Shown piece by piece: positions 32,218 through 44,314 of a stretch of 64,000 bases of DNA. This DNA comes from Lutimonas halocynthiae (lineage in GTDB: Bacteria > Bacteroidota > Bacteroidia > Flavobacteriales > Flavobacteriaceae). How positions within the stretch are numbered: the stretch's first letter is position 1; the number at the start of each line of letters is the position of its first letter. A program made the translations under genes and the position numbers. Where the stretch lies: the NCBI RefSeq assembly GCF_030409835.1, contig NZ_JAUFQO010000001.1, forward strand, positions 124,001-188,000. Reading direction: 5' to 3'. Under the pieces are notes generated by a model. It worked only from the letters and a program-made list of their open reading frames with translations, ran no database searches and was not told where the DNA came from.

Positions 32218-34080
32218 ATGAAGCATATTATTTTTCTACTGGCATTGTTTTACAGCATTTCAGTTTCATCGCAAATTGAAAGGGTTGAACCCCCAAACTG
32301 GTGGGTTGGTTTTAAAGATTCTAAGCTGCAGCTTTTGGTTAAAGGAAATGATATTTCAGCATTGACTCCTGAAATTGAATATGCTGGTGTGCGTATCCAA
32401 AAAGTTCATAAGGCAAAAAGTCCTAATTACCTTTTTATCGATCTTCAAATCGACTCGGATGCAAAACCTGGAAGTTTTACTATTGTATTTAATGCAAAGG
32501 GCAAGAAGAAGTTAAAACATGAGTATACCTTAAAGGAAAAACAGAAGCCATCTGATCAATATATTGGTTTCGATAGTTCGGATGTAATTTATCTCATTAC
32601 ACCTGATCGTTTTGCCAATGCAAATCCTGATAATGACATTATTGAAGGCTTAAAGGAGACTGCGATTGATCGCAAGGATGATTATGCCAGACATGGAGGA
32701 GATATTCAAGGTATAACTGAACATGTTGATTATATTTCTGAAATGGGCTTTACGGCAATTTGGTCTTGTCCATTGCTCACCAATGATATGGATAGCTATT
32801 CTTATCACGGTTATGCCATAACAGATCTTTATGAAATTGACCCGCGATTTGGAACAATGTCAGATTATATTGAACTCTCAGCAAAGGCGAATCAAAATGG
32901 GGTGAAACTTATTATGGACCAGGTAGCCAATCATTGCGGAAGTGAACATTGGTGGATGAAAGACCTTCCATTTGAAGATTGGATCAATAACCAGACTAAC
33001 TATGAGGCTGGGAAAAAAACAATATATTCTAATCATCGCAGAACCACTAACCAAGACATCTACGCTTCAAAAATTGATGCAATCGGTATGACCGATGGAT
33101 GGTTTGTAGATTCAATGCCAGATTTGAACCAGAACAATCCGTTTATGGCGACCTATCTTATCCAGAATAGTATCTGGTGGATAGAATCAGCTCAATTAGG
33201 GGGAATCAGACAAGACACCTATCCTTATCCTGACAAAGTTTTTATGTCTAACTGGGCAGGTGCGATCATGAACGAATACCCTAATTTTAGTATTGTTGGT
33301 GAAGAATGGAGTTACAACCCATTACTTGTTGGTTATTGGCAACAAGGCGCTAAGAATCATGATGGATATGAGTCAAATTTAAAATCTACCATGGATTTTC
33401 CTATGCAGAGAAAAATCGTTGAGGCGCTTAAGGAAGATGAAAAATGGGACAAAGGATTGGTTAAAATCTATGAAGGACTTGCAAATGATTTTCATTACCC
33501 AAGCCCAAAAGATATCATGGTTTTTCCTGACAACCACGATATGGATAGAATTCATACCCAGTTTGATGAAGACCCTGTATTGACAAAGATGGCCATGGCC
33601 TATTTCCTGACACTTCCTCGAATTCCACAGCTTTATTATGGAACAGAAATCCTGCTGCAAAATACCGCTAAACCTGGGGATCATGGTTTGATAAGAACTG
33701 ATTTTCCTGGAGGATGGGATGGAGATACTACAAATGCCTTTACAGCCACCGGACTCAGCGCTGTGCAACTTGACATGCAACAATATCTAAAGACTTTACT
33801 TCAATTTAGAAAGAACAGTACGACAATTCACGAAGGAAGAACTATTCATTTTTCACCAGAGGATGGTGTATACCTGATGTTCAGAATCATGGATGACAAC
33901 ATCGTTGTTTTAATATTAAATAAAAACGATGAAAGTTACGTGTTAGACCTCACTAAATTCAAAGAAATTGGATTGGAAGAGAAAAAACTAAAAGATGTAA
34001 TAACAGGAAATGAAATCCTTTGGAAAGACAGCCTGAATCTGGAAGAAAAAGGAGCCACAATTTTAACAACTTTAAAATAA
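32218..34080 (+). CDS. GH13 cyclomaltodextrinase/neopullulanase-like enzyme
   Basis: A 620-aa enzyme with a signal peptide (ends SVSSQ), an N-terminal beta domain (residues 20-105) like the N-domain of SusA-type neopullulanases, and a GH13 barrel: Asn238-His239, nucleophile Asp333 in GIRQDTYPY, acid Glu362 in VGEEW and Asp441 in DNHDMDR. It likely cuts cyclodextrins, pullulan or maltodextrins in the periplasm. It lies 19 bp after the GH65 gene and 1 bp before the esterase. Confidence 0.93.
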   Translation: MKHIIFLLALFYSISVSSQIERVEPPNWWVGFKDSKLQLLVKGNDISALTPEIEYAGVRIQKVHKAKSPNYLFIDLQIDSDAKPGSFTIVFNAKGKKKLKHEYTLKEKQKPSDQYIGFDSSDVIYLITPDRFANANPDNDIIEGLKETAIDRKDDYARHGGDIQGITEHVDYISEMGFTAIWSCPLLTNDMDSYSYHGYAITDLYEIDPRFGTMSDYIELSAKANQNGVKLIMDQVANHCGSEHWWMKDLPFEDWINNQTNYEAGKKTIYSNHRRTTNQDIYASKIDAIGMTDGWFVDSMPDLNQNNPFMATYLIQNSIWWIESAQLGGIRQDTYPYPDKVFMSNWAGAIMNEYPNFSIVGEEWSYNPLLVGYWQQGAKNHDGYESNLKSTMDFPMQRKIVEALKEDEKWDKGLVKIYEGLANDFHYPSPKDIMVFPDNHDMDRIHTQFDEDPVLTKMAMAYFLTLPRIPQLYYGTEILLQNTAKPGDHGLIRTDFPGGWDGDTTNAFTATGLSAVQLDMQQYLKTLLQFRKNSTTIHEGRTIHFSPEDGVYLMFRIMDDNIVVLILNKNDESYVLDLTKFKEIGLEEKKLKDVITGNEILWKDSLNLEEKGATILTTLK

Positions 34081-34081
34081 C

Positions 34082-34933
34082 ATGGCATTCAGAAGTTCAA
34101 ATAGGATCTTCATTAGCATAATTTTCTTGATGACCGTCAACTTTTTGTTGGGCCAGAATAATTCTACTGCAAATCAAAATGTGGTTGTCCTTAACGATGC
34201 TTTTGAAATGGCCTCCTTAGACACAACCAGGAGAATTTGGATCTATCTGCCTGCTGATTATCAATCGAGTCAAGAGAAATATCCAGTTCTTTATATGCAT
34301 GATGGGCAAAACCTATTCGATGATGAAACTTCCTATGTTGGAGAGTGGGGTGTTGATGAATCGCTTGACAATTTAGCCATTGATGAAAATATTAATTTAA
34401 TCGTGGTAGGAATAGACAATGGAGGAATTCAAAGAATGGATGAATATACACCATGGTTGCTCAAGAATTACGATTCTAAGCCAAAAGGAGAAGCTTATAT
34501 CAATTTCATCGTTCAATCATTAAAACCCTATATCGATAATCATTTTCGCACCTTGCCAGGAAATGAAAATACAGGTATCATGGGCAGTTCATTGGGAGGT
34601 TTGATCTCACATTATGCCGTTTTAAAACACCCCAATATCTTTGGGAAAGCTGGAATTTTTTCACCTTCTTTTGAAATGGCACCGGATAGTTTTCAGTTCA
34701 CCGAAGCACATTGTAAAAATGTAAATTCTATGCTTTATTTCATGGCAGGTGACTCCGAATCTGGTGAAATGGCTCCCTTAATGTTAAAAATGGTTGATAA
34801 ATTGCATGAATGTGGTTATCCTGCTGCTAATATTTACTCGAAAGTTGTTGAAGGTGGAGAACACAATGAAAAATTATGGCGAGATGGATTTAAAGACGCC
34901 ATTCGCTGGTTGTATGGAAAAAATAATAATTAA
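34082..34933 (+). CDS. Exported esterase, alpha/beta hydrolase fold
   Basis: A 283-aa protein with a signal peptide ending NFLLGQN. The fold is the Esterase-D/Fes type (PF00756): RRIWIYLPADYQ, YPVLYMHDGQNLFDD, the nucleophile elbow MGSSLGGLISHYA and the C-terminal His in GGEHNEKLW. The role in a starch locus may be removal of ester groups from modified glucans or sugars, but no substrate is indicated. It sits between two GH13 genes, co-directional and tightly spaced. Confidence 0.85.
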   Translation: MAFRSSNRIFISIIFLMTVNFLLGQNNSTANQNVVVLNDAFEMASLDTTRRIWIYLPADYQSSQEKYPVLYMHDGQNLFDDETSYVGEWGVDESLDNLAIDENINLIVVGIDNGGIQRMDEYTPWLLKNYDSKPKGEAYINFIVQSLKPYIDNHFRTLPGNENTGIMGSSLGGLISHYAVLKHPNIFGKAGIFSPSFEMAPDSFQFTEAHCKNVNSMLYFMAGDSESGEMAPLMLKMVDKLHECGYPAANIYSKVVEGGEHNEKLWRDGFKDAIRWLYGKNNN

Positions 34934-34950
34934 TAAAATTTAAAGCAAAC

Positions 34951-36621
34951 ATGAATAAGAAGCTATTAATTTTCGGATTGACCCTGCTATCAATAATCAC
35001 TGCCTGTAAAGAGGCAAATCAGGAAACAGTAACAGCTGCTCCTGAAGTTCCCTTCTATTGGGAAAATGCAAGCATTTATTTCTTGTTGACTGACCGTTTT
35101 AACAATGCTGACACCAGTAATGATGTCAACTTTGATCGAACACTCGAAACAGCGCCACTAAGGGGTTTTAAAGGTGGAGATATTAAAGGAATCACTGAAA
35201 AAATAACTTCAGGATATTTCAATGACTTGGGTGTCAATGCGATTTGGTTTACACCAGTAGTGGAACAAATTCACGGAGGAACGGATGAAGGAACCGGTTT
35301 TACTTATGCTTTCCATGGTTATTGGGCAAAAGACTGGACGGCTTTAGATCCAAATTTCGGAACCATGGAAGACCTGGCAAACTTAGTTGAAGTGGCCCAT
35401 GACAACGGAATTCGCATCCTAATGGATGCCGTGATTAATCATACAGGCCCAGTGACAGAGCAAGATCCTCAATGGCCGGATAATTGGGTAAGAACAAGCC
35501 CTAAGTGCGAGTTTAATTCTTATGAAACCGCTGTTCATTGCGCTTTGGTTGAAAATCTGCCTGATATCCTGACTGAATCCAATGACAATGTTGAACTTCC
35601 TGAGTCATTGATTGAAAAGTGGAAAAGTGAAGGACGTTACGAGCAGGAAATGAAAGAGCTTGATGCTTTTTTTGAAAGAACGGGTTATCCAAGAGCACCG
35701 CGATTCTATATCATTAAATGGTTAACTGATTATGTCAGAGAATTTGGAATTGATGGCTATAGAGCAGATACAGTAAGGCATATTGAAGAAGATGTTTGGA
35801 CTGAATTCAAAAACGAATGTGAAATCGCTTTCAGCACATGGAAGCAGCAAAATACATCAGCGGTTTTAGATAACAATGATTTTTATATGGTTGGTGAAGT
35901 CTATGACTATGACATTATTTCTTCTGGCAAGCGCTTTGATTTTGGTGACGTTAAGGTGAATTATTATGACCATGGATTCGACAGTATGATCAATTTTGAA
36001 TTCAAAAAAAGTGCAAACGAAGACTATGAAAAAATGTTTTCAACCTATAGCACTATTTTAAATGATGAAACCAATGGTTTTCAGGTCTTAAATTACCTCA
36101 CCTCACATGACGATGGTTCACCATTTGATAAGACCAGAGAAAAAACCTATGAAACAGCCAGTAAGCTCCTGTTATCACCAGGAACTGCCCAAATCTATTA
36201 TGGAGACGAATCGGCAAGAACACTTATCGTAGAAGGAACTCAAGGAGATGCAACCCTTCGATCTTTTATGAATTGGAAGGATATTGAATCAAACGATGAA
36301 ACAAAAGCACTTTTGACGCACTGGCAAAAGCTAGGTATTTTCAGAAGTAATCATCCATCCATTGGAAAAGGTAAACATCAGATGATCAGTGAGGCTCCTT
36401 ATATCTTTCAAAGAACATTTAACAAAGATGATTTTAGCGATGCAGTAGTCATAGGTCTTGAATTGGAAAAAGGAATCAAAAATATTGCCGTTGGAGAAGT
36501 ATTTGAAGAAGGAACTCAATTAACTGATGCCTATTCTAATGTCTCAGCAAAAGTTAAAAATGGATCAGTGAGTTTGGATACACCATTTTCTATAGTATTA
36601 TTGGAAAAAAGAAGTCAATAG
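34951..36621 (+). CDS. GH13 alpha-amylase-type lipoprotein
   Basis: A 556-aa lipoprotein (lipobox IITACKEA) with a GH13 barrel: Asn163-His164 in DAVINHTGP, nucleophile Asp273 in YRADTVRHI, acid Glu316 in MVGEVYDYD and Asp387 in LTSHDDGSP. It starts directly at the barrel with no extra N-terminal domain. It is probably tethered to the outer membrane or the periplasmic side and degrades maltodextrins. Exact specificity (alpha-amylase against oligosaccharides) is not resolved. Confidence 0.93.
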   Translation: MNKKLLIFGLTLLSIITACKEANQETVTAAPEVPFYWENASIYFLLTDRFNNADTSNDVNFDRTLETAPLRGFKGGDIKGITEKITSGYFNDLGVNAIWFTPVVEQIHGGTDEGTGFTYAFHGYWAKDWTALDPNFGTMEDLANLVEVAHDNGIRILMDAVINHTGPVTEQDPQWPDNWVRTSPKCEFNSYETAVHCALVENLPDILTESNDNVELPESLIEKWKSEGRYEQEMKELDAFFERTGYPRAPRFYIIKWLTDYVREFGIDGYRADTVRHIEEDVWTEFKNECEIAFSTWKQQNTSAVLDNNDFYMVGEVYDYDIISSGKRFDFGDVKVNYYDHGFDSMINFEFKKSANEDYEKMFSTYSTILNDETNGFQVLNYLTSHDDGSPFDKTREKTYETASKLLLSPGTAQIYYGDESARTLIVEGTQGDATLRSFMNWKDIESNDETKALLTHWQKLGIFRSNHPSIGKGKHQMISEAPYIFQRTFNKDDFSDAVVIGLELEKGIKNIAVGEVFEEGTQLTDAYSNVSAKVKNGSVSLDTPFSIVLLEKRSQ

Positions 36622-36628
36622 TCAAATC

Positions 36629-38512
36629 ATGATGAAATATTCTCAAACCCTTTTATTATTGTCAATATTCGGCTTATTTTTCAGCTGTGAAAAAGAACCA
36701 GTTTCAAAAACCCCTGAAATGACGAAAAAAGAACATAAAAAAGTAATATATCAGGTATTTACGCGCCTGTTTGGAAACGAAAACACAAACAATAAACCTT
36801 GGGGTACGCTCGAGGAGAATGGCGTAGGGAAATTTAACGATTTTACGGATGAAGCCTTATCCGAAATTCGTGAACTGGGCGTTAGTCATATTTGGTATAC
36901 TGGTGTATTACATCATGCCATGGTAACAGATTATTCGAGCTATGGGATCTCAAATGATGATCCAGATATAGTTAAAGGAAGGGCCGGCTCTCCTTATGCA
37001 GTAAAAGATTATTACAGCGTTGATCCAGACATGGCTGTTGATCCTTCAAAAAGAATGGAAGAATTTCAAGCGCTGATTGACAGGACTCACGAACAAAATA
37101 TGAAAGTTATCATTGATATCGTTCCTAACCATATCGCTCGAAAGTATGAAGGGATGAACAATCCTGAAGGCATTTCAGATTTTGGGGCACATGATGATAC
37201 GAGTCAAGCCTATAAAAAAGACAATAACTTTTACTATATCACCGGAGAATCATTCAAGGTACCCAATTGGAAAGGAGGTTACCAGCCTTTAGGAGGTGAG
37301 GCCCACCCTATGGCAAATGGAAAATTCGATGAAAATCCTGCAAAATGGACCGGAAATGGATCCAGATTAGCGCAACCAGACCAAAACGACTGGTATGAAA
37401 CAGTAAAAATTAATTACGGGGTAAGGCCTGATGGAACAAAAGATTTTGACTCACTTCCTGATGGTTTTAACAAATTAGCTTATCAGGATCATTTTGATTT
37501 CTGGAAAGATAAATCTGTTCCTGATTCGTGGATTAAATTTAGAGACATCGCCCTTTATTGGCTGGAAAAAGGTGTTGATGGTTTGCGATATGATATGGCC
37601 GAAATGGTTCCTGTTGAATTCTGGAGTTATATGAATTCATCGATCAAAGTAAAATATCCAGAAGCCCTTTTGCTAGCTGAAGTTTATAACCCAGGTCTTT
37701 ATAGAGACTATATCCATTTGGGAAAGATGGATTACCTATACGATAAGGTTGGGTTCTATGATAGTATAAAACATATTGTTCAAGGTCATGGATGGACAGA
37801 TCATATTCCTAAAGTTCAGGAAGAAATCATGGATATTGAGCATCATATGCTTCACTTTCTGGAGAATCATGATGAACAACGAATTGCCAGTCCAGACTTT
37901 GCCGGATCAGCTGAAAAAGGAAAGCCGGCAATGGTTGTCAGCACTACCATAAGCAGCTCACCTACTTTGGTGTATTTTGGGCAAGAAGTTGGAGAACCCG
38001 GAAATGAGAACGCTGGCTTTGGTTCACCTACCAGAACCTCTATTTTTGACTATATTGGTGTTCCTCATTTTCAACGTTGGACAAATCATAAACGCTTTGA
38101 TGGCGCTGGTCTTTCTAAAGAAGAAAAAGATTTACGTAGCTTTTATAAAAAATTACTCCGATTTAGCCTTAGCAGTGAAGCCTTGATGGGAGCATATCGC
38201 GAAATTCATTACTTCAATAAAGATCAAAACCCAGACTATGACCATAGGGTGTTTTCTTTTGTTAGATGGTCAGAAAATGAACAAGTCATCATTGTTTCAA
38301 ATTTTGACACAGGGAATCAATACGATCTGGATCTGATCATTCCGGAGGAGATTATTAACATCTGGAACCTTAAGGATGGTTCATATTCAGCAATAGACCA
38401 GCTCAATGAAACAACAGAAAGAACTATGCAGGTTAACAACAAAACAGGGAGAATTAAAATACAATTAAAGCCTCTTGAATCAAATATATTTAAACTCAAA
38501 AAAAATGAATAG
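36629..38512 (+). CDS. Second GH13 lipoprotein
   Basis: A 627-aa lipoprotein (lipobox LFFSCEKE) with the GH13 catalytic set: Asn167-His168 in DIVPNHIA, nucleophile Asp322 in GLRYDMAEM, acid Glu351 in LLAEVYNP and Asp415 in LENHDEQR. Long inserts around residues 185-275 distinguish it from the preceding gene, so the two are paralogues of different specificity. It is the last gene of the plus arm, 7 bp after the previous one. A weak inverted repeat overlapping its stop may end the transcript. Confidence 0.92.
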   Translation: MMKYSQTLLLLSIFGLFFSCEKEPVSKTPEMTKKEHKKVIYQVFTRLFGNENTNNKPWGTLEENGVGKFNDFTDEALSEIRELGVSHIWYTGVLHHAMVTDYSSYGISNDDPDIVKGRAGSPYAVKDYYSVDPDMAVDPSKRMEEFQALIDRTHEQNMKVIIDIVPNHIARKYEGMNNPEGISDFGAHDDTSQAYKKDNNFYYITGESFKVPNWKGGYQPLGGEAHPMANGKFDENPAKWTGNGSRLAQPDQNDWYETVKINYGVRPDGTKDFDSLPDGFNKLAYQDHFDFWKDKSVPDSWIKFRDIALYWLEKGVDGLRYDMAEMVPVEFWSYMNSSIKVKYPEALLLAEVYNPGLYRDYIHLGKMDYLYDKVGFYDSIKHIVQGHGWTDHIPKVQEEIMDIEHHMLHFLENHDEQRIASPDFAGSAEKGKPAMVVSTTISSSPTLVYFGQEVGEPGNENAGFGSPTRTSIFDYIGVPHFQRWTNHKRFDGAGLSKEEKDLRSFYKKLLRFSLSSEALMGAYREIHYFNKDQNPDYDHRVFSFVRWSENEQVIIVSNFDTGNQYDLDLIIPEEIINIWNLKDGSYSAIDQLNETTERTMQVNNKTGRIKIQLKPLESNIFKLKKNE

Positions 38513-39053: not shown

Positions 39054-39497
39054 TCAATGAACTTCAATGACTCGTTTTGGAGTAATTTCATCTATATGAA
39101 CTTTATTCAAAACTAATTTCAAGATACCACGTTTGTAAGTCGCATCGATCATTTCTTCTTCATTCACATTTTCTGGTAATGTAAATGATCTTAAGAACGA
39201 ATTATAATTAAACTCTTTACGAGTATAATCTTTCTCTTCTTCTTTGATTTCTTCGCTATTTTCTGCGGATATTTTCAACAATCCATTTTCAATGGATATT
39301 TCAAAATCTTTTTTGTTAAATCCTGGGGCGGCCATTTCAATTTCAAAGTGGTCTTCAGTTTCTTTAACATTCATTGCTGGGATCCATTTGTCTTCTAGCA
39401 TAAAGTCATTGGTAAGCAGTCTGTCAGAACCTAATAGGTCTGTAAACATGCTGTCATACCGAGGTAGTCTGGGTTTTTTAAATTTTACAAGTGTCAT
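39054..39497 (-). CDS. Small heat shock protein, Hsp20 family
   Basis: A 147-aa holdase chaperone that binds unfolding proteins. The alpha-crystallin domain runs from about residue 40 (AMNVKETEDHFEIEMAAPGF) to RGILKLVLNK, with the terminal helix-breaking end KRVIEVH. Length is typical. The gene has its own promoter with two FNR-like boxes (39555-39568 and 39577-39590), so it is predicted to respond to the adjacent REC-CRP regulator. Confidence 0.95.
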   Translation of the reverse strand: MTLVKFKKPRLPRYDSMFTDLLGSDRLLTNDFMLEDKWIPAMNVKETEDHFEIEMAAPGFNKKDFEISIENGLLKISAENSEEIKEEEKDYTRKEFNYNSFLRSFTLPENVNEEEMIDATYKRGILKLVLNKVHIDEITPKRVIEVH

Positions 39498-39524
39498 GAC
39501 AAAACATTTAAATTAATAACACAT

Positions 39525-39590
39525 TAAAGCTATTTTTATTAGCGCTCGTCTGCAATGATTCTAATCAATCAAATTAATGATTCTAATCAA
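39525..39590 (-). promoter_or_regulatory. Hsp20 promoter with tandem FNR-like boxes
   Basis: On the minus strand: boxes TTGATTAGAATCAT at 39577-39590 and 39555-39568 (identical, 22 bp apart), -33 TTG at 39553-39555 and -7 TAGCTTTA at 39525-39532, with N20 between. This gives centres near -65 and -43. Confidence 0.8.
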
Positions 39591-39613
39591 AAAAAGTTGC
39601 CCCGAAGGGCAAC
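39589..39613 (-). terminator. Intrinsic terminator after the PepSY-like gene
   Basis: GTTGCCC (39596-39602), loop CGAA, GGGCAAC (39607-39613). The minus strand continues with a run of seven T. It sits 26 bp after the PepSY-like stop and abuts the Hsp20 box 2. Confidence 0.88.
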
Positions 39614-39639
39614 TCAATTTGAGCTCAAAATATCCCCTT

Positions 39640-40146
39640 TTATAGGAATACACCATCATCATCAACTTTTACTCTGATTCTTTTTTTACCGTTTTCAAGA
39701 ACGATCTTATATTGCTTATTAGTTCCTGAATCTGCGTCATAATTCACTTTGTAGACATCCTTGGCAATCTTCCATCCAGGGAATCTTTCAGCGACTGACT
39801 CAGCTACATTATTTGGTAAAGCCACGTTATTAAATTTTTCAACGGTATAAAGAATTTTACCATCCTTATCATAAGCGGCTACAATTCTTCCATCAGGTAT
39901 ATAGAAATACACTTTATAGAAATCGTTTCCATCTTCGTAAAATTCTGAACTTCTAACGTCAAATTTTGCCACCATATCTTCAAGCAGTTTAACAGATACT
40001 GCGGCTTCTGTATTATCTATGCTGTTAAGGTATTTATAATTTGTGGCACGAACCTCTACTTCTGGTAACATGCCATCATTAATAACCTGAGCGTAGAATT
40101 GGGTGCTTAATCCAATAGCTAATAATCCTAACAATAATTTTTTCAT
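39640..40146 (-). CDS. Exported PepSY-like protein
   Basis: A 168-aa protein with a signal peptide (ends STQFYAQV). The rest has the two-strand-helix look of PepSY-like (BLIP-type, PF11396) domains: YKVYFYIPDGRIVAAYDKDGKIL and VAESVAERFPGWKIAKDVYKV. It is predicted periplasmic. Function is unknown. Its promoter carries FNR-like boxes (40215-40228, 40237-40250), which ties it to the local stress regulon. Confidence 0.75.
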   Translation of the reverse strand: MKKLLLGLLAIGLSTQFYAQVINDGMLPEVEVRATNYKYLNSIDNTEAAVSVKLLEDMVAKFDVRSSEFYEDGNDFYKVYFYIPDGRIVAAYDKDGKILYTVEKFNNVALPNNVAESVAERFPGWKIAKDVYKVNYDADSGTNKQYKIVLENGKKRIRVKVDDDGVFL

Positions 40147-40184
40147 GATGCTTTGGTTTTAATTAATACTGCTACTTCTAACTA

Positions 40185-40250
40185 TAAAATTACTTGTAGA
40201 AATAAGAACCCGCAATGACGACGCTCAAAGGAAACAATGATTCTTATCAA
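40185..40250 (-). promoter_or_regulatory. Promoter of PepSY-like gene with tandem FNR-like boxes
   Basis: Minus strand: distal box TTGATAAGAATCAT (40237-40250), proximal box TTGAGCGTCGTCAT (40215-40228), -33 TTG (40213-40215) and -7 TAATTTTA (40185-40192). The spacings, 22 bp between boxes and N20 to the -7 element, equal those at 39525 and 40600. Confidence 0.75.
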
Positions 40251-40355
40251 AAATAAATGGCTAAAAAGGGATCTCAATAGGAAACTGGTTTAAAAGAAAT
40301 AGCATAAAAGACTCAAGAGAAGATAAGAAAGCGAATATGATGTTGGTATTTAATC

Positions 40356-40593
40356 AAAAAAAGAACAGGAAGTGTTTAACTTCCTGTTCCCTCTCAAATC
40401 AAAAATACCTTTTATAATTTAAAAATATCCTTCACTAATTCCTTATCAATTCCTAATCAGAAAACAGATATTCGATAAGCTATAAAACCTACCTTTGATT
40501 TTAAAGACCCTACAGGTATCTACCTGAGCTGCCTTCTTAATGCTTCATAGAATTTGTTCCATTAAATGAGTGAGTAAATCATTCTTTCATTTA
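40356..40593 (-). ncRNA. Candidate regulated small RNA, about 240 nt
   Basis: A promoter at 40600-40665 points into a 240-nt stretch with no ORF longer than six codons. It ends in a strong intrinsic terminator: GAACAGGAAGT (40363-40373), loop GTTTA, ACTTCCTGTTC (40379-40389), then seven U on the minus strand. The body includes a small hairpin around CAGGTA/TACCTG (40513-40526). Start 40593 is predicted from the -7 position, not observed. Part of the 532-bp gap 40147-40678, the rest being the neighbouring promoters. It could be an FnrS-like regulatory RNA. Confidence 0.6.
40363..40389 (-). terminator. Terminator of the candidate small RNA
   Basis: A perfect 11-bp stem with a 5-nt loop and a U-run on the minus strand. 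It lies 290 nt beyond the stop of the nearest upstream gene, too far to belong to it without an intervening transcript. Confidence 0.85.
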
Positions 40594-40599
40594 ATACAC

Positions 40600-40665
40600 C
40601 AAATTTATAATAGTAAATAAAGCAAATCAATGACGTAGATCAATGATTTGCTTGATTCTAATCAA
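40600..40665 (-). promoter_or_regulatory. Promoter with FNR-like boxes and no gene downstream
   Basis: Minus strand: distal box TTGATTAGAATCAA (40652-40665), a perfect FNR-type TTGAT-N4-ATCAA palindrome. Proximal box TTGATCTACGTCAT (40630-40643). -33 TTG (40628-40630), N20, and -7 TAAATTTG (40600-40607). The longer repeat AAGCAAATCA/TGATTTGCTT (40620-40653) overlaps the proximal box. Confidence 0.8.
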
Positions 40666-40678
40666 TTATCATATTCTT

Positions 40679-41071
40679 TTAATAAGGAACCCAGCCGTAG
40701 GCTTGATTCAACAAAGTCAAACCAACAATAAACATCAAAAACAGAAAAAACTGAAACCATTTAAAATCAATTTTTCGTGCCCACTTATAAGCAAACTCCG
40801 GAAAAGCAAATTGACTAATTCCCTTAATTAAACTAAACCAACCGAATAGGGTAATAATGACCCTCCAGTCTTTGACCCATAAATTATGGACCAGAATATT
40901 CAATAGACCAATAATTATCCCCAGGAAGGCCAAAATAATAATGAACTTATCGTCTTTCGCAAAAGAAAACATTTGTTTGATTCTTTTGGGATAGATCATA
41001 AAAAGTAAAAAAAATATGATAAAAAACCATCCCCAGAATTTGGCTAAAAATATAGAACTGACCATTTTCAA
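40679..41071 (-). CDS. Four-helix membrane protein
   Basis: A 130-aa hydrophobic protein with about four transmembrane segments (FWGWFFIIFFLLFMIYP, then IIILAFLGIIIGLLNIL, VIITLFGWFSLIKGI and FFLFLMFIVGLTLLNQ). I do not recognise a family. It overlaps the uspA-like stop by 4 bp (ATGA), so it is translated in the same operon, under the uspA promoter. Confidence 0.75.
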   Translation of the reverse strand: MKMVSSIFLAKFWGWFFIIFFLLFMIYPKRIKQMFSFAKDDKFIIILAFLGIIIGLLNILVHNLWVKDWRVIITLFGWFSLIKGISQFAFPEFAYKWARKIDFKWFQFFLFLMFIVGLTLLNQAYGWVPY

Positions 41072-41913
41072 TCATTTAAATGATGCATAACAAATAGAGG
41101 GATTTTGGCATGAAAACTAAGGGCCCTTACTTTGGGTTTAAAAAATAATCTTTCAAAAAAGTTATAATGTCTGGCCATTATAACTATCATGTCAATATTG
41201 CCTCTGCTTTGTGTAAAACAATTAAGTCCTTCTTCAAAATCACTATTAGAAAGTGTATGGCAACTATGTTGTACGTTCACCAAATAGGATTCCAGTTTTC
41301 TTTTATTACGCATCTGTGTTTCACTCAATTCATCCTTATCGCTAAAATGAACTATTCTAACAATGGCATCATTCAACTCAGCAAGATTTACCAATGGTAC
41401 CAAATCATTAAAATCATAGTCAATAAGATAGTCAGTAGGAAAAACAAGCTCTTTAGGTGGCTTGAACTCATTATGTTCTGGCACAGCAATCACATGGCAA
41501 GAGTTTCTCATAATGACATCGCTTGCATTACTTCCCATGAAAATTTCTTTGGCTCCTGATGCACCTTTTGTACCCATGATGATCAGTTCGATATCTTTTT
41601 CCTTAACTACCTGCTCTACAGCTAAGCTAAACAGGTTATAGTCAGTAATTGCTTCAAAACTATGGTTTTCGTTTTGTGGAATTCCTTCAATTAATTTTTC
41701 TATTTCTTTTCTGGAATTTTCGTACATCTCATCCTCCACCAAAGCCAAGTTCGAAGCATTCTGATCCATTAATTCTTCATTAGTCAAATAAGGAATCCTA
41801 AAAACATTCAACATATAAAAGGTACAGGGAATATCTTTAAATAGTCTCGTGGCATATTGAATTGCATTAATAGAAATCGGTGAAAAATCGGTGGGCAATA
41901 GTATTTTTTTCAT
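41068..41913 (-). CDS. Universal stress protein, tandem UspA domains
   Basis: A 281-aa protein made of two UspA-like domains. The first opens KKILLPTDFSPISINAIQYA and has an ATP-type loop GTKGASGAKEIFMGSNASDVI. The second opens ELVFPTDYLID but is shorter and lacks a clear ATP loop. The ATG at 41913 is chosen because an in-frame GTG at 41934 is upstream of the predicted promoter start. Its promoter carries FNR-like boxes at 41966-42001. It is co-transcribed with the membrane-protein gene. Confidence 0.9.
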   Translation of the reverse strand: MKKILLPTDFSPISINAIQYATRLFKDIPCTFYMLNVFRIPYLTNEELMDQNASNLALVEDEMYENSRKEIEKLIEGIPQNENHSFEAITDYNLFSLAVEQVVKEKDIELIIMGTKGASGAKEIFMGSNASDVIMRNSCHVIAVPEHNEFKPPKELVFPTDYLIDYDFNDLVPLVNLAELNDAIVRIVHFSDKDELSETQMRNKRKLESYLVNVQHSCHTLSNSDFEEGLNCFTQSRGNIDMIVIMARHYNFFERLFFKPKVRALSFHAKIPLFVMHHLND

Positions 41914-41935
41914 GATCAATATTTTAATTTTCACT

Positions 41936-42001
41936 TAAAAATAATAATATGCTTTGGCTCTTACATTGACAAGAATCAATAGCTGCCTTGATTAAGGTCA
42001 T
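41936..42001 (-). promoter_or_regulatory. uspA promoter with tandem FNR-like boxes
   Basis: Minus strand: boxes ATGACCTTAATCAA (41988-42001) and TTGATTCTTGTCAA (41966-41979), 22 bp apart. The -33 is ATG rather than TTG (41964-41966) and the -7 is TATTTTTA (41936-41943). The distal box overlaps the stop codon of the regulator gene. Confidence 0.72.
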
Positions 42002-43069: not shown

Positions 43070-44314
43070 TTAATTAACTTTATGAACCAATGGAAGTTTA
43101 ATCGTTACTGTAGTGCCTTTATACTCTTCACTTTTCACCTCTACTGACCCATTAAGTTTCTCCATGTGCTTTTTTACAATATTCAAACCTATTCCAGTTC
43201 CCTTGATATGAAGCACATTTTTAGCCCTGTAAAACCTGTCGAAAATAAATTCCTGTGCATCTACTGGAATTCCAATACCCTGGTCTATAATAGCTATTTT
43301 CAAATTTTTACTTTTCTCTGTCTTAATTTTGATTGTTGAATCCTTTTCAGAATATTTTATTGCATTATAAAGTACGTTCCGAATAATGATGTCAATTACT
43401 TTTCTGTCTTGCATTAATTCAATGGATTCCTGGCAAGTTTCAAGCTCAATTCTTTGTCCCTCTTTGAGAATGATATTTGCATCCTCAATAAGCCTGTTGA
43501 GCAATTCACATATCTTGAATCTTGACAACTGGAAAAAATAATTATCGCTTTCAGTTTTTTCGAGAAACAGAAAATCATCAAGTATGCTGTTTAATTGATT
43601 TACCAAGGTTTTAATGGTGCGGGTATGCGCATGTATCTTTTCTTTTGAATTGATCTCATTGTACTTATCGATAAGACTTGCCGATGTTAAGATACCGCTC
43701 AGTGGTGTCTTAAATTCATGTGAAGCCAATGACATAAATTTGGTTTGCATGGCATTGAGTTCTTTCTCCTTTTCAAATGCTTTTTTCGCACTTTTTTCAG
43801 CTAAGATCCTTTCTTTTATTTCCTCCTTTAGCTTCAAATTGGATCTTTCCAGATCAGTCACTACACGAATTAATTGAACAGTTTGTTGCTTAACCTCCTT
43901 TTCAAGAATTTTGTTTTTCTCCTTTATTTGAATCTCGCTCTGTTTCCTTGTTCTAATGTCCGAAATAACAGCCTTTGCAAAAAATGCTCCCTCATGGATA
44001 AAGTGATTTAAACCTATTTCCAGATCTAGAATTGAACCATTTTTGTGCATGCCAAAAAACTCACGCCCTTTACCTTTTTTATACTTTTTAGGAAATTTTA
44101 CATAGGTATTGAAATGCTCGAAATGAGCTTTGTGTAGCGACTTTGGAATGAGGAACTCAATTTTTTGACCTATTAATTCCCTTTTTTTATACCCAAAAAT
44201 CTCTTCTATGGCAGAATTGATCATCACTATTCTACCTTCTTGATTTGCTATACAAATCCCTTCAACAAGAGAGTCAAAACAAATTTTATAAAAAACTTGA
44301 TCACTTTTTACCAT
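43070..44314 (-). CDS. PAS-domain sensor histidine kinase
   Basis: A 414-aa soluble kinase with no transmembrane segment. The N-terminal PAS domain spans about residues 8-130 (IANQEGRIVMINSAIEEIFGY), followed by a long coiled-coil linker (140-190), HisKA with His199 in SLASHEFKTPLSGIL, and HATPase_c with N-box (NVLYNAIKYS) and GTGIGLNIVKKHMEKL. It most likely phosphorylates the REC-CRP regulator 37 bp downstream. The signal may be cytoplasmic redox or oxygen sensed through PAS, but no cofactor residues stand out. Confidence 0.92.
   Translation of the reverse strand: MVKSDQVFYKICFDSLVEGICIANQEGRIVMINSAIEEIFGYKKRELIGQKIEFLIPKSLHKAHFEHFNTYVKFPKKYKKGKGREFFGMHKNGSILDLEIGLNHFIHEGAFFAKAVISDIRTRKQSEIQIKEKNKILEKEVKQQTVQLIRVVTDLERSNLKLKEEIKERILAEKSAKKAFEKEKELNAMQTKFMSLASHEFKTPLSGILTSASLIDKYNEINSKEKIHAHTRTIKTLVNQLNSILDDFLFLEKTESDNYFFQLSRFKICELLNRLIEDANIILKEGQRIELETCQESIELMQDRKVIDIIIRNVLYNAIKYSEKDSTIKIKTEKSKNLKIAIIDQGIGIPVDAQEFIFDRFYRAKNVLHIKGTGIGLNIVKKHMEKLNGSVEVKSEEYKGTTVTIKLPLVHKVN

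Follow-up and report, generated by a model that had tools for sequence, protein, structure and literature searches.

At class II FNR/CRP promoters, the activator site is centred at about -41.5 and overlaps the upstream promoter element. The cbb3 oxidase genes (ccoNO) and the CcoI ATPase gene are classic targets of FixK, the DosR regulon includes targets of the Hsp20 and Usp types, which are also found here, and FnrS is an FNR-dependent small RNA (sRNA) of enterobacteria. Here, we analyse a 64,000-nucleotide stretch of the genome of the marine bacterium Lutimonas halocynthiae (family Flavobacteriaceae; hereafter, the window), in which four promoters carry pairs of FNR-like TGA-N6-TCA boxes close to genes for a PAS histidine kinase and for REC-CRP, a regulator fusing a response-regulator receiver to a CRP-like output. 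The layout of these promoters recurs across the genome, the genus and more distant Bacteroidota, and we propose that REC-CRP reads it.

As described in the available part of PMC4999443, the FixL-FixJ-FixK system of Rhizobiales combines, as proposed here, an oxygen-sensing PAS kinase, a receiver and an FNR-like core (TTGANCNNGATCAANG in Rhizobiales), and counts cbb3 oxidase genes among its targets, as in Hymenobacter here. The mycobacterial DosS/DosT-DosR (DevRS) dormancy regulon is also built on a two-domain response regulator and uses adjacent sites cooperatively, the proximal one overlapping -35, a behaviour that we presume for the sites studied here; the determinants of cooperativity in DevR/DosR lie outside the DNA-binding half of the protein, according to the accessible portion of PMC3029386.

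A rigid tandem-box promoter in the genome and genus

On the minus strand, all four promoters follow the pattern TGA-N6-TCA/N10/TGA-N6-TCA/N23/TAnnTT, that is, a distal box, 10 nt, a proximal box, 23 nt and the -7 element (Table 1; window coordinates are 1-based). A preliminary description of the window had reported this identical layout at all four places, with -7 positions that proved exact and box starts that were one base too low. The box centres, which it had put at -43 and -65, fall instead at -41.5 and -63.5 when the first T of the -7 element is counted as -12, as in the numbering of Flavobacterium johnsoniae (T-12 A-11 T-8 T-7 T-6 G-5) given in the consulted part of PMC6847099. Its claim that the shared geometry exceeds chance is borne out: windows simulated with a first-order Markov model (300 runs) hold a mean of 0.017 tandem pairs per 64 kb, against 4 in the real one (Poisson P ~3e-9). 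The window has 38 boxes; pairs formed by them with gaps of 0-60 nt number four at gap 10, one at gap 11 and none at any other gap.

Across the entire genome, there are 21 tandem pairs, compared with 0 in a reversed-pattern control and about 1.4 expected from box density. Four of them are those of the window and the other 17 are found elsewhere, which rejects a private local regulon and makes that earlier label too narrow. When gaps of 0-30 nt after a TGAT start were scanned, gap 10 occurred at 19 places, whereas the 30 other gaps together accounted for 34, with a maximum of 5 (gap 9). With the -7 element also required, the pattern was matched exactly at 16 places and with one mismatch at 8, and at 0 in the control; the eight comprise two exact sites seen from the opposite strand, four pairs already known whose -7 element is weaker and two new places, giving 22 distinct places in the genome. 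TA stands at +24 after the box in 17 of the 21 sites. Separately, one gap-9 pair was seen about 100 bp from a gap-10 pair, toward a divergent gene (L011:3220-3252, equivalent to G000:C16:29319-29351).

The layout is retained in the genus, in which 17 of 22 genomes, the window's own included, contain at least three tandem pairs, some of the assemblies being 61-86% complete. In 14 other genus genomes, 147 pairs were counted, and flanks were read for 91 of them: TA is found at +24 in 83 and TA..TT at +24 in 82, the latter occurring 0-8 times at each of the other offsets from 1 to 49. The position of the boxes relative to the -7 element is thus fixed; TA alone is frequent at +30 as well (48 of 91), because many -7 elements end in TTTA. 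The boxes are also kept upstream of orthologous genes in relatives, the conservation on which the preliminary description had staked its reading.

For uspA, the start is probably ATG 41913 and not the GTG (41934) chosen by the open reading frame (ORF) caller, because this GTG lies upstream of the predicted +1; the resulting protein of 281 residues has the median length of its cluster of downstream proteins. Beside the regulon cluster end three plus-strand ORFs resembling the alpha-amylase family, the first and second being separated by an esterase-like ORF (32218-38512; names assigned by eye).

Table 1. Promoter elements and genes of the tandem-box cluster in the window
Feature	Position	Strand	Remarks
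Hsp20/alpha-crystallin gene	39054..39497	-	PF00011, E 1.6e-19
hsp20 -7 element TAGCTTTA	39525..39532	-	predicted +1 near 39520
hsp20 promoter, proximal TGA-N6-TCA box	39556..39567	-	centre ~-41.5
hsp20 promoter, distal TGA-N6-TCA box	39578..39589	-	centre ~-63.5
PepSY-like protein gene	39640..40146	-	PF11396, 22.7 bits, under the 28.3-bit cut-off
PepSY-like gene -7 element TAATTTTA	40185..40192	-	predicted +1 near 40180
PepSY-like gene promoter, proximal box	40216..40227	-	
PepSY-like gene promoter, distal box	40238..40249	-	
Structured non-coding RNA with terminator-like hairpin (GGGAACAGGAAG...CTTCCTGTTCTTT)	40360..40595	-	boundaries predicted
Non-coding RNA -7 element TAAATTTG	40600..40607	-	full consensus; predicted +1 near 40595
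Non-coding RNA promoter, proximal box	40631..40642	-	
Non-coding RNA promoter, distal box	40653..40664	-	
uspA, universal stress protein gene	41068..41913	-	PF00582, E 6.6e-20
uspA -7 element TATTTTTA	41936..41943	-	predicted +1 near 41931
uspA promoter, proximal box	41967..41978	-	
uspA promoter, distal box	41989..42000	-	overlaps the REC-CRP gene stop codon
REC-CRP regulator gene, 344 aa	41998..43032	-	PF00072 receiver, PF00027 cNMP-binding, PF13545 Crp helix-turn-helix
PAS histidine kinase gene, adjoining REC-CRP	43070..44314	-	PAS resembles DosP/FixL heme PAS

The REC-CRP regulator and its probable operators across Bacteroidota

REC-CRP belongs to the CRP/FNR superfamily, as indicated by its domain matches (PF00027, 2.2e-19; PF13545, 1.1e-14) and by Crp/Fnr chains matched in the PDB; its output consists of cNMP_binding and HTH_Crp_2, and a NarL/LuxR-type output domain was not found in it. 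In the recognition helix of such proteins, a Glu and an Arg read TGA. The corresponding E310 and R314 are kept in all 79 REC-CRP proteins compared, and E310 aligns with the E of the 'RET' helices in several PDB matches. The phospho-acceptor D54 is present in 74 of the 79 rows, the remaining 5 being gapped at that column, and together with the adjacent kinase gene it identifies REC-CRP as a two-component response regulator. The Fe-S cysteine set of FNR is absent: the 13 aligned orthologues have one invariant (C166) and one near-invariant (C53) cysteine.

REC-CRP or a full-length orthologue (53-76% identity) is encoded in 15 of the 22 genus genomes, all 15 of which have at least three tandem pairs, whereas five of the seven genomes without it (G007, G009, G018, G019 and G021) have none (Fisher P 8e-4 over the 22 genomes, without phylogenetic correction). 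A Cys-containing FNR paralogue (G000:C8:683491-684177) is present in all five of these zero-pair genomes, at 73-83% identity, and is thereby rejected as the sole binder. No close match to it was found in G003, G004 and G005, which have 3-4 pairs (assemblies 67-83% complete). Among further CRP-like paralogues, inspected by eye, two have no Glu in the helix and one has Pro at that position.

A profile search of named genomes uncovered relatives of REC-CRP in genera that include Lutibacter, Hymenobacter, Runella and Raineya, and the geometry is found again beside those of Lutibacter and Hymenobacter. In loci L110-L138, which include the genus, gap 10 accounts for 71 pairs, compared with 13 in total over the 40 other gaps between 0 and 40. 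In loci L139-L189, mostly from Cytophagales, 45 pairs have gap 10 and 23 have gap 11, with a total of 9 over 39 other gaps. The N23 distance to the -7 element is unchanged beyond the genus, GC-rich Hymenobacter included: TA..TT or TA...TT stands at +24 in 23 of 32 sites of L122-L138 and, in L139-L189, in 22 of 45 at gap 10 and 16 of 23 at gap 11.

Within the family, REC-CRP was detected at E<=1e-40 in 101 of 199 genomes, and at least three tandem pairs are found in just 6 of 197 genomes outside the genus. Three of these six (G163, G190 and G080) carry the three REC-CRPs nearest to that of the window; the other three (G136, G186 and G220) have no match at this threshold. Twenty of the family loci were retrieved, and 17 of them (L196-L212) have single boxes; L213, which sits on a long branch and has one site of each type, tandem and single, was kept outside this count. 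In a tree of 77 REC-CRPs (out of 104 distinct proteins, after thinning of Hymenobacter and length limits; 7 of the 77 without an operator label), the 17 single-box loci group together in one supported clade; three further loci with single boxes only (L068, from the same family, and two from Runella) are placed elsewhere. The single-only label requires 3 changes on this tree, compared with a mean of 17.7 after shuffling, and operator type thus largely tracks REC-CRP phylogeny. The double operator looks ancestral under the midpoint root as drawn, a root that is not established. Positions that differ between single-box and tandem regulators include 75, 122, 249, 328 and 330. Collectively, the co-occurrence with tandem pairs and the regulator phylogeny point to REC-CRP, encoded beside uspA, as the best-supported candidate for the binder of the tandem boxes, in keeping with the preliminary description, which had named it.

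The kinase, the target genes and a structured RNA

The PAS domain of the kinase has the heme PAS of Escherichia coli DosP as its best PDB match (E 1.4e-12), and FixL was matched too. Heme PAS domains of the DosP/FixL type depend on a proximal His and a distal Arg, and the window kinase has both residues aligned with these heme-pocket positions. A kinase match is found in 74 of 80 related REC-CRP loci, those in L112 and L151 being doubtful. Judging from its sequence, the kinase probably senses oxygen through heme, as DosP and FixL do, and low oxygen is the likely signal. In Hymenobacter, tandem promoters precede genes for a COX1+FixO protein (ccoNO) and a CcoI-type copper P-ATPase (one representative of each was scanned, from clusters of 12 and 8 proteins), targets that also suggest a low-oxygen signal. 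Downstream genes scanned with Pfam comprised 8 in the window, 30 in other loci of the same genome and 18 in relatives; Lutimonas targets outside the window include a molybdopterin oxidoreductase and a second Usp, and many others have no Pfam match. In Flavobacterium psychrophilum, the cbb3 oxidase rises at low oxygen, according to the available text of a transcriptome study that mentions neither CRP nor FNR (PMC9723704).

The third promoter of the window has no gene directly after it, and the next one downstream, encoding the PepSY-like protein, has a tandem promoter of its own. Instead, about 236 nt follow that end in a terminator-like hairpin. Their predicted fold reaches -61.9 kcal/mol (z-score, -5.0), with none of 200 shuffles as low. 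Thirteen sequences, from the window and 12 relatives (alignment A4), have two helices of a long hairpin and the terminator in common, and 15 of 28 base pairs changed on both sides, compared with 8.2 (standard deviation, 1.7) in shuffled alignments, none of 500 reaching this value, and 2-8 for slid structures. A second measure, that of further pair types, was not above shuffles (118/500). Model R1, trained on 7 of the 13 sequences, was searched against 25 of 40 relatives (all but G016-G024 and G034-G039) and finds the RNA in 9 of them, all among the 16 genus genomes searched and none among the 9 from outside the genus. Held-out loci were recovered at 136 bits (L058), E 3e-6 (L122) and E 6e-5 (L062); the more diverged L065, L066 and L067 scored E 0.02-0.12, values that some matches on the reverse strand equal or surpass, and R1 did not find L123 on its own strand. 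In the held-out genome G012, the promoter before the RNA keeps the geometry with one box mismatch.

A small protein gene is rejected as an explanation, the longest ORF being 7 codons in the window RNA and 7-26 codons in seven genomes, and so is 6S-Flavo (RF01685), the sole match to which at E<=0.001 in this genome lies elsewhere. Rfam gave no match at the gathering threshold for the window RNA and only sub-threshold ones at E<=5 (best E 0.075). What the preliminary description had called an orphan transcript is thus, as judged from its sequence and predicted fold, a conserved, covarying, previously uncatalogued non-coding RNA. It resembles FnrS in being of regulatory size and placed under an FNR-like activator site; comparison via Rfam, the only one made, revealed no sequence relatedness.

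A 6S-Flavo candidate lies at G000:C8:599791-599916 (79.8 bits, below the 85-bit cut-off). G008 has two adjacent copies of the RNA, at L060:2642-2780 (100.9 bits) and L060:2207-2346 (118 bits), the second of which belonged to the R1 training set. By eye, terminated transcripts of similar size and different appearance follow tandem sites at L124:7344, L126:10370, L135:10572, L129:9256 and L131:9078; the hairpin of these Lutibacter-side transcripts ends in CGTTTC, and a 5' hairpin is common to L124, L126 and L135, of which L124 matches R1 at E 0.003.

A proposed oxygen circuit, its alternatives and its relation to known systems

The architecture, its conservation, its co-occurrence with REC-CRP, its tracking of the regulator phylogeny and the RNA are all supported by computation; from these we infer the oxygen signal, heme, phosphorylation, binding, cooperativity, activation and transcript starts. 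Low oxygen would relieve the heme-PAS kinase, which would phosphorylate Asp54 of the REC-CRP receiver. Two REC-CRP dimers would then bind the two FNR-like boxes, on one face of the DNA and two turns apart, the proximal dimer (~-41.5) contacting RNA polymerase as a class II activator and the distal one (~-63.5) adding cooperativity or extra contacts. Hsp20, Usp, the PepSY-like protein, the structured RNA and some 17 or more further promoters would be switched on. We assign a probability of roughly 0.8 to this reading, in which the four sites are REC-CRP operators within a kinase-driven, oxygen-responsive, genome-wide switch activated by two dimers in the class II manner.

A number of observations weigh against it. 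As for the geometry, one of the 21 own-genome sites, which precedes a nitroreductase-holding gene group, has its best -7 element at +19, and 8 of the 91 genus sites have no TA at +24; one site of this latter kind in G001 precedes a gene for a Nuo51-like protein. About half of the gap-10 sites in Cytophagales and Hymenobacter have a -7 element that begins with GA instead of TA, including those of the Hymenobacter ccoNO and CcoI promoters. As for the regulator, no REC-CRP orthologue was detected in the genus genomes G006 (4 pairs, 61% complete) and G020 (8 pairs, 84% complete), nor in G136, which has 7 tandem pairs and is 96% complete and in which an assembly gap or another binder may be responsible. 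Conversely, 96 of the 99 non-genus family genomes with REC-CRP at E<=1e-40 have 0-2 tandem pairs. The 17 single-box loci contain 50 single boxes at N23 from TAnnTT, against 0-5 for any one of the other distances between 15 and 31. Tandem and single boxes stand together, both counted at N23, in most Lutibacter loci. As for the signal, just 47 of 75 aligned kinases retain both heme-pocket residues, His and Arg; those of Lutibacter have lost them, and the signal that they sense may have changed. None of the Lutimonas targets scanned with Pfam was a cbb3 gene. In Lutibacter, the kinases of L125, L127, L128, L130, L132, L134 and L136-L138 were observed to have no PAS segment bearing the heme His.

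In the single-box loci, a second box 22 bp upstream is absent, the match there being 1.76 of 6 half-site letters compared with 1.24-2.00 at offsets 14-39, and when 18 loci (L196-L213) were scanned for dyads that might form a different tandem motif, only A/T runs ranked at the top. The tandem form is thus not obligatory for the REC-CRP family, single boxes being used in one large Flavobacteriaceae clade. The mixed Lutibacter loci also suit a division of labour, compatible with the proposed switch, in which REC-CRP occupies tandem operators, the FNR paralogue occupies single boxes and crosstalk occurs between them. We consider this possible but not probable, given that single boxes cluster around REC-CRP genes in the single-box clade, which suggests that REC-CRP itself uses them there.

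Somewhat less likely still, the upstream box might belong to a single operator of 34 bp that is bound by a REC-linked tetramer, or serve repression, instead of being a second cooperative dimer site. By eye, the inner half-sites look stronger than the outer ones, and ATCAAT-N6-ATTGAT is frequent in the site lists; however, gap 11 is also in use in Cytophagales, and the proximal position is that of a class II activator site.

The core of the TGA-N6-TCA boxes is shared by FNR-type sites, and the helix of the FNR paralogue also contains an E...R pair (E-S-T-I-R, by eye), with a CcoI-like ATPase gene nearby (by eye). The boxes could accordingly be imagined as targets of this ordinary Fe-S anaerobic regulator, with REC-CRP a mere neighbour. 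We find this improbable in view of the zero-pair genomes that retain the paralogue, the tandem pairs that surround REC-CRP genes across Bacteroidota and the operator type that follows the REC-CRP tree. Chance, or a promoter cassette copied by duplication, could be invoked for four sites within 2.5 kb and can be dismissed, since spacer sequences vary between sites, 17 more sites lie elsewhere, reversed controls gave 0, both for the pairs alone and with the -7 element required, simulated windows averaged 0.017 pairs against 4 and the geometry persists in GC-rich Hymenobacter.

To our knowledge, hypoxia control is poorly mapped in Bacteroidota, a phylum dominant in the sea and in soil, and few sRNAs are known from it. 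The promoter rule in three parts (a double box, 10-11 nt apart, 23 nt from the -7 element) allows searches that need only sequence and links a widespread regulator to a regulon; no description of a REC-CRP or tandem-FNR system in Bacteroidota was found among the titles and opening lines of abstracts in the open-access literature searched. Lineages with double and single operators under one regulator family make the role of the second dimer directly testable, and the structured RNA is a candidate hypoxia sRNA. Whether all of this amounts to a previously undescribed, Bacteroidota-wide oxygen circuit, leading directly from a heme-PAS kinase to a receiver-CRP fusion, in which a rigid double operator (-41.5/-63.5) works as the cooperative switch, regulator lineages move collectively between double and single operators and, in Lutimonas and relatives, a DosR-like stress regulon is headed by a new structured RNA, is in our view an evenly balanced question.

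Compared with FixL-FixJ-FixK, the receiver and the CRP/FNR output are fused here, which leaves no FixK transcriptional step, so that FixL, FixJ and FixK would in effect be compressed into two proteins; among the loci examined, those of Lutimonas and Lutibacter and most of those of Hymenobacter have tandem operators. DosR belongs to the NarL subfamily, whereas the output here is CRP-like and the box is TGA-N6-TCA. Finally, unlike class II FNR/CRP promoters, those described here have a second box 22 bp upstream (23 in some Cytophagales) and the Bacteroidota -7 element TAnnTTTG, and their putative regulator carries a receiver and has no FNR cysteine set.

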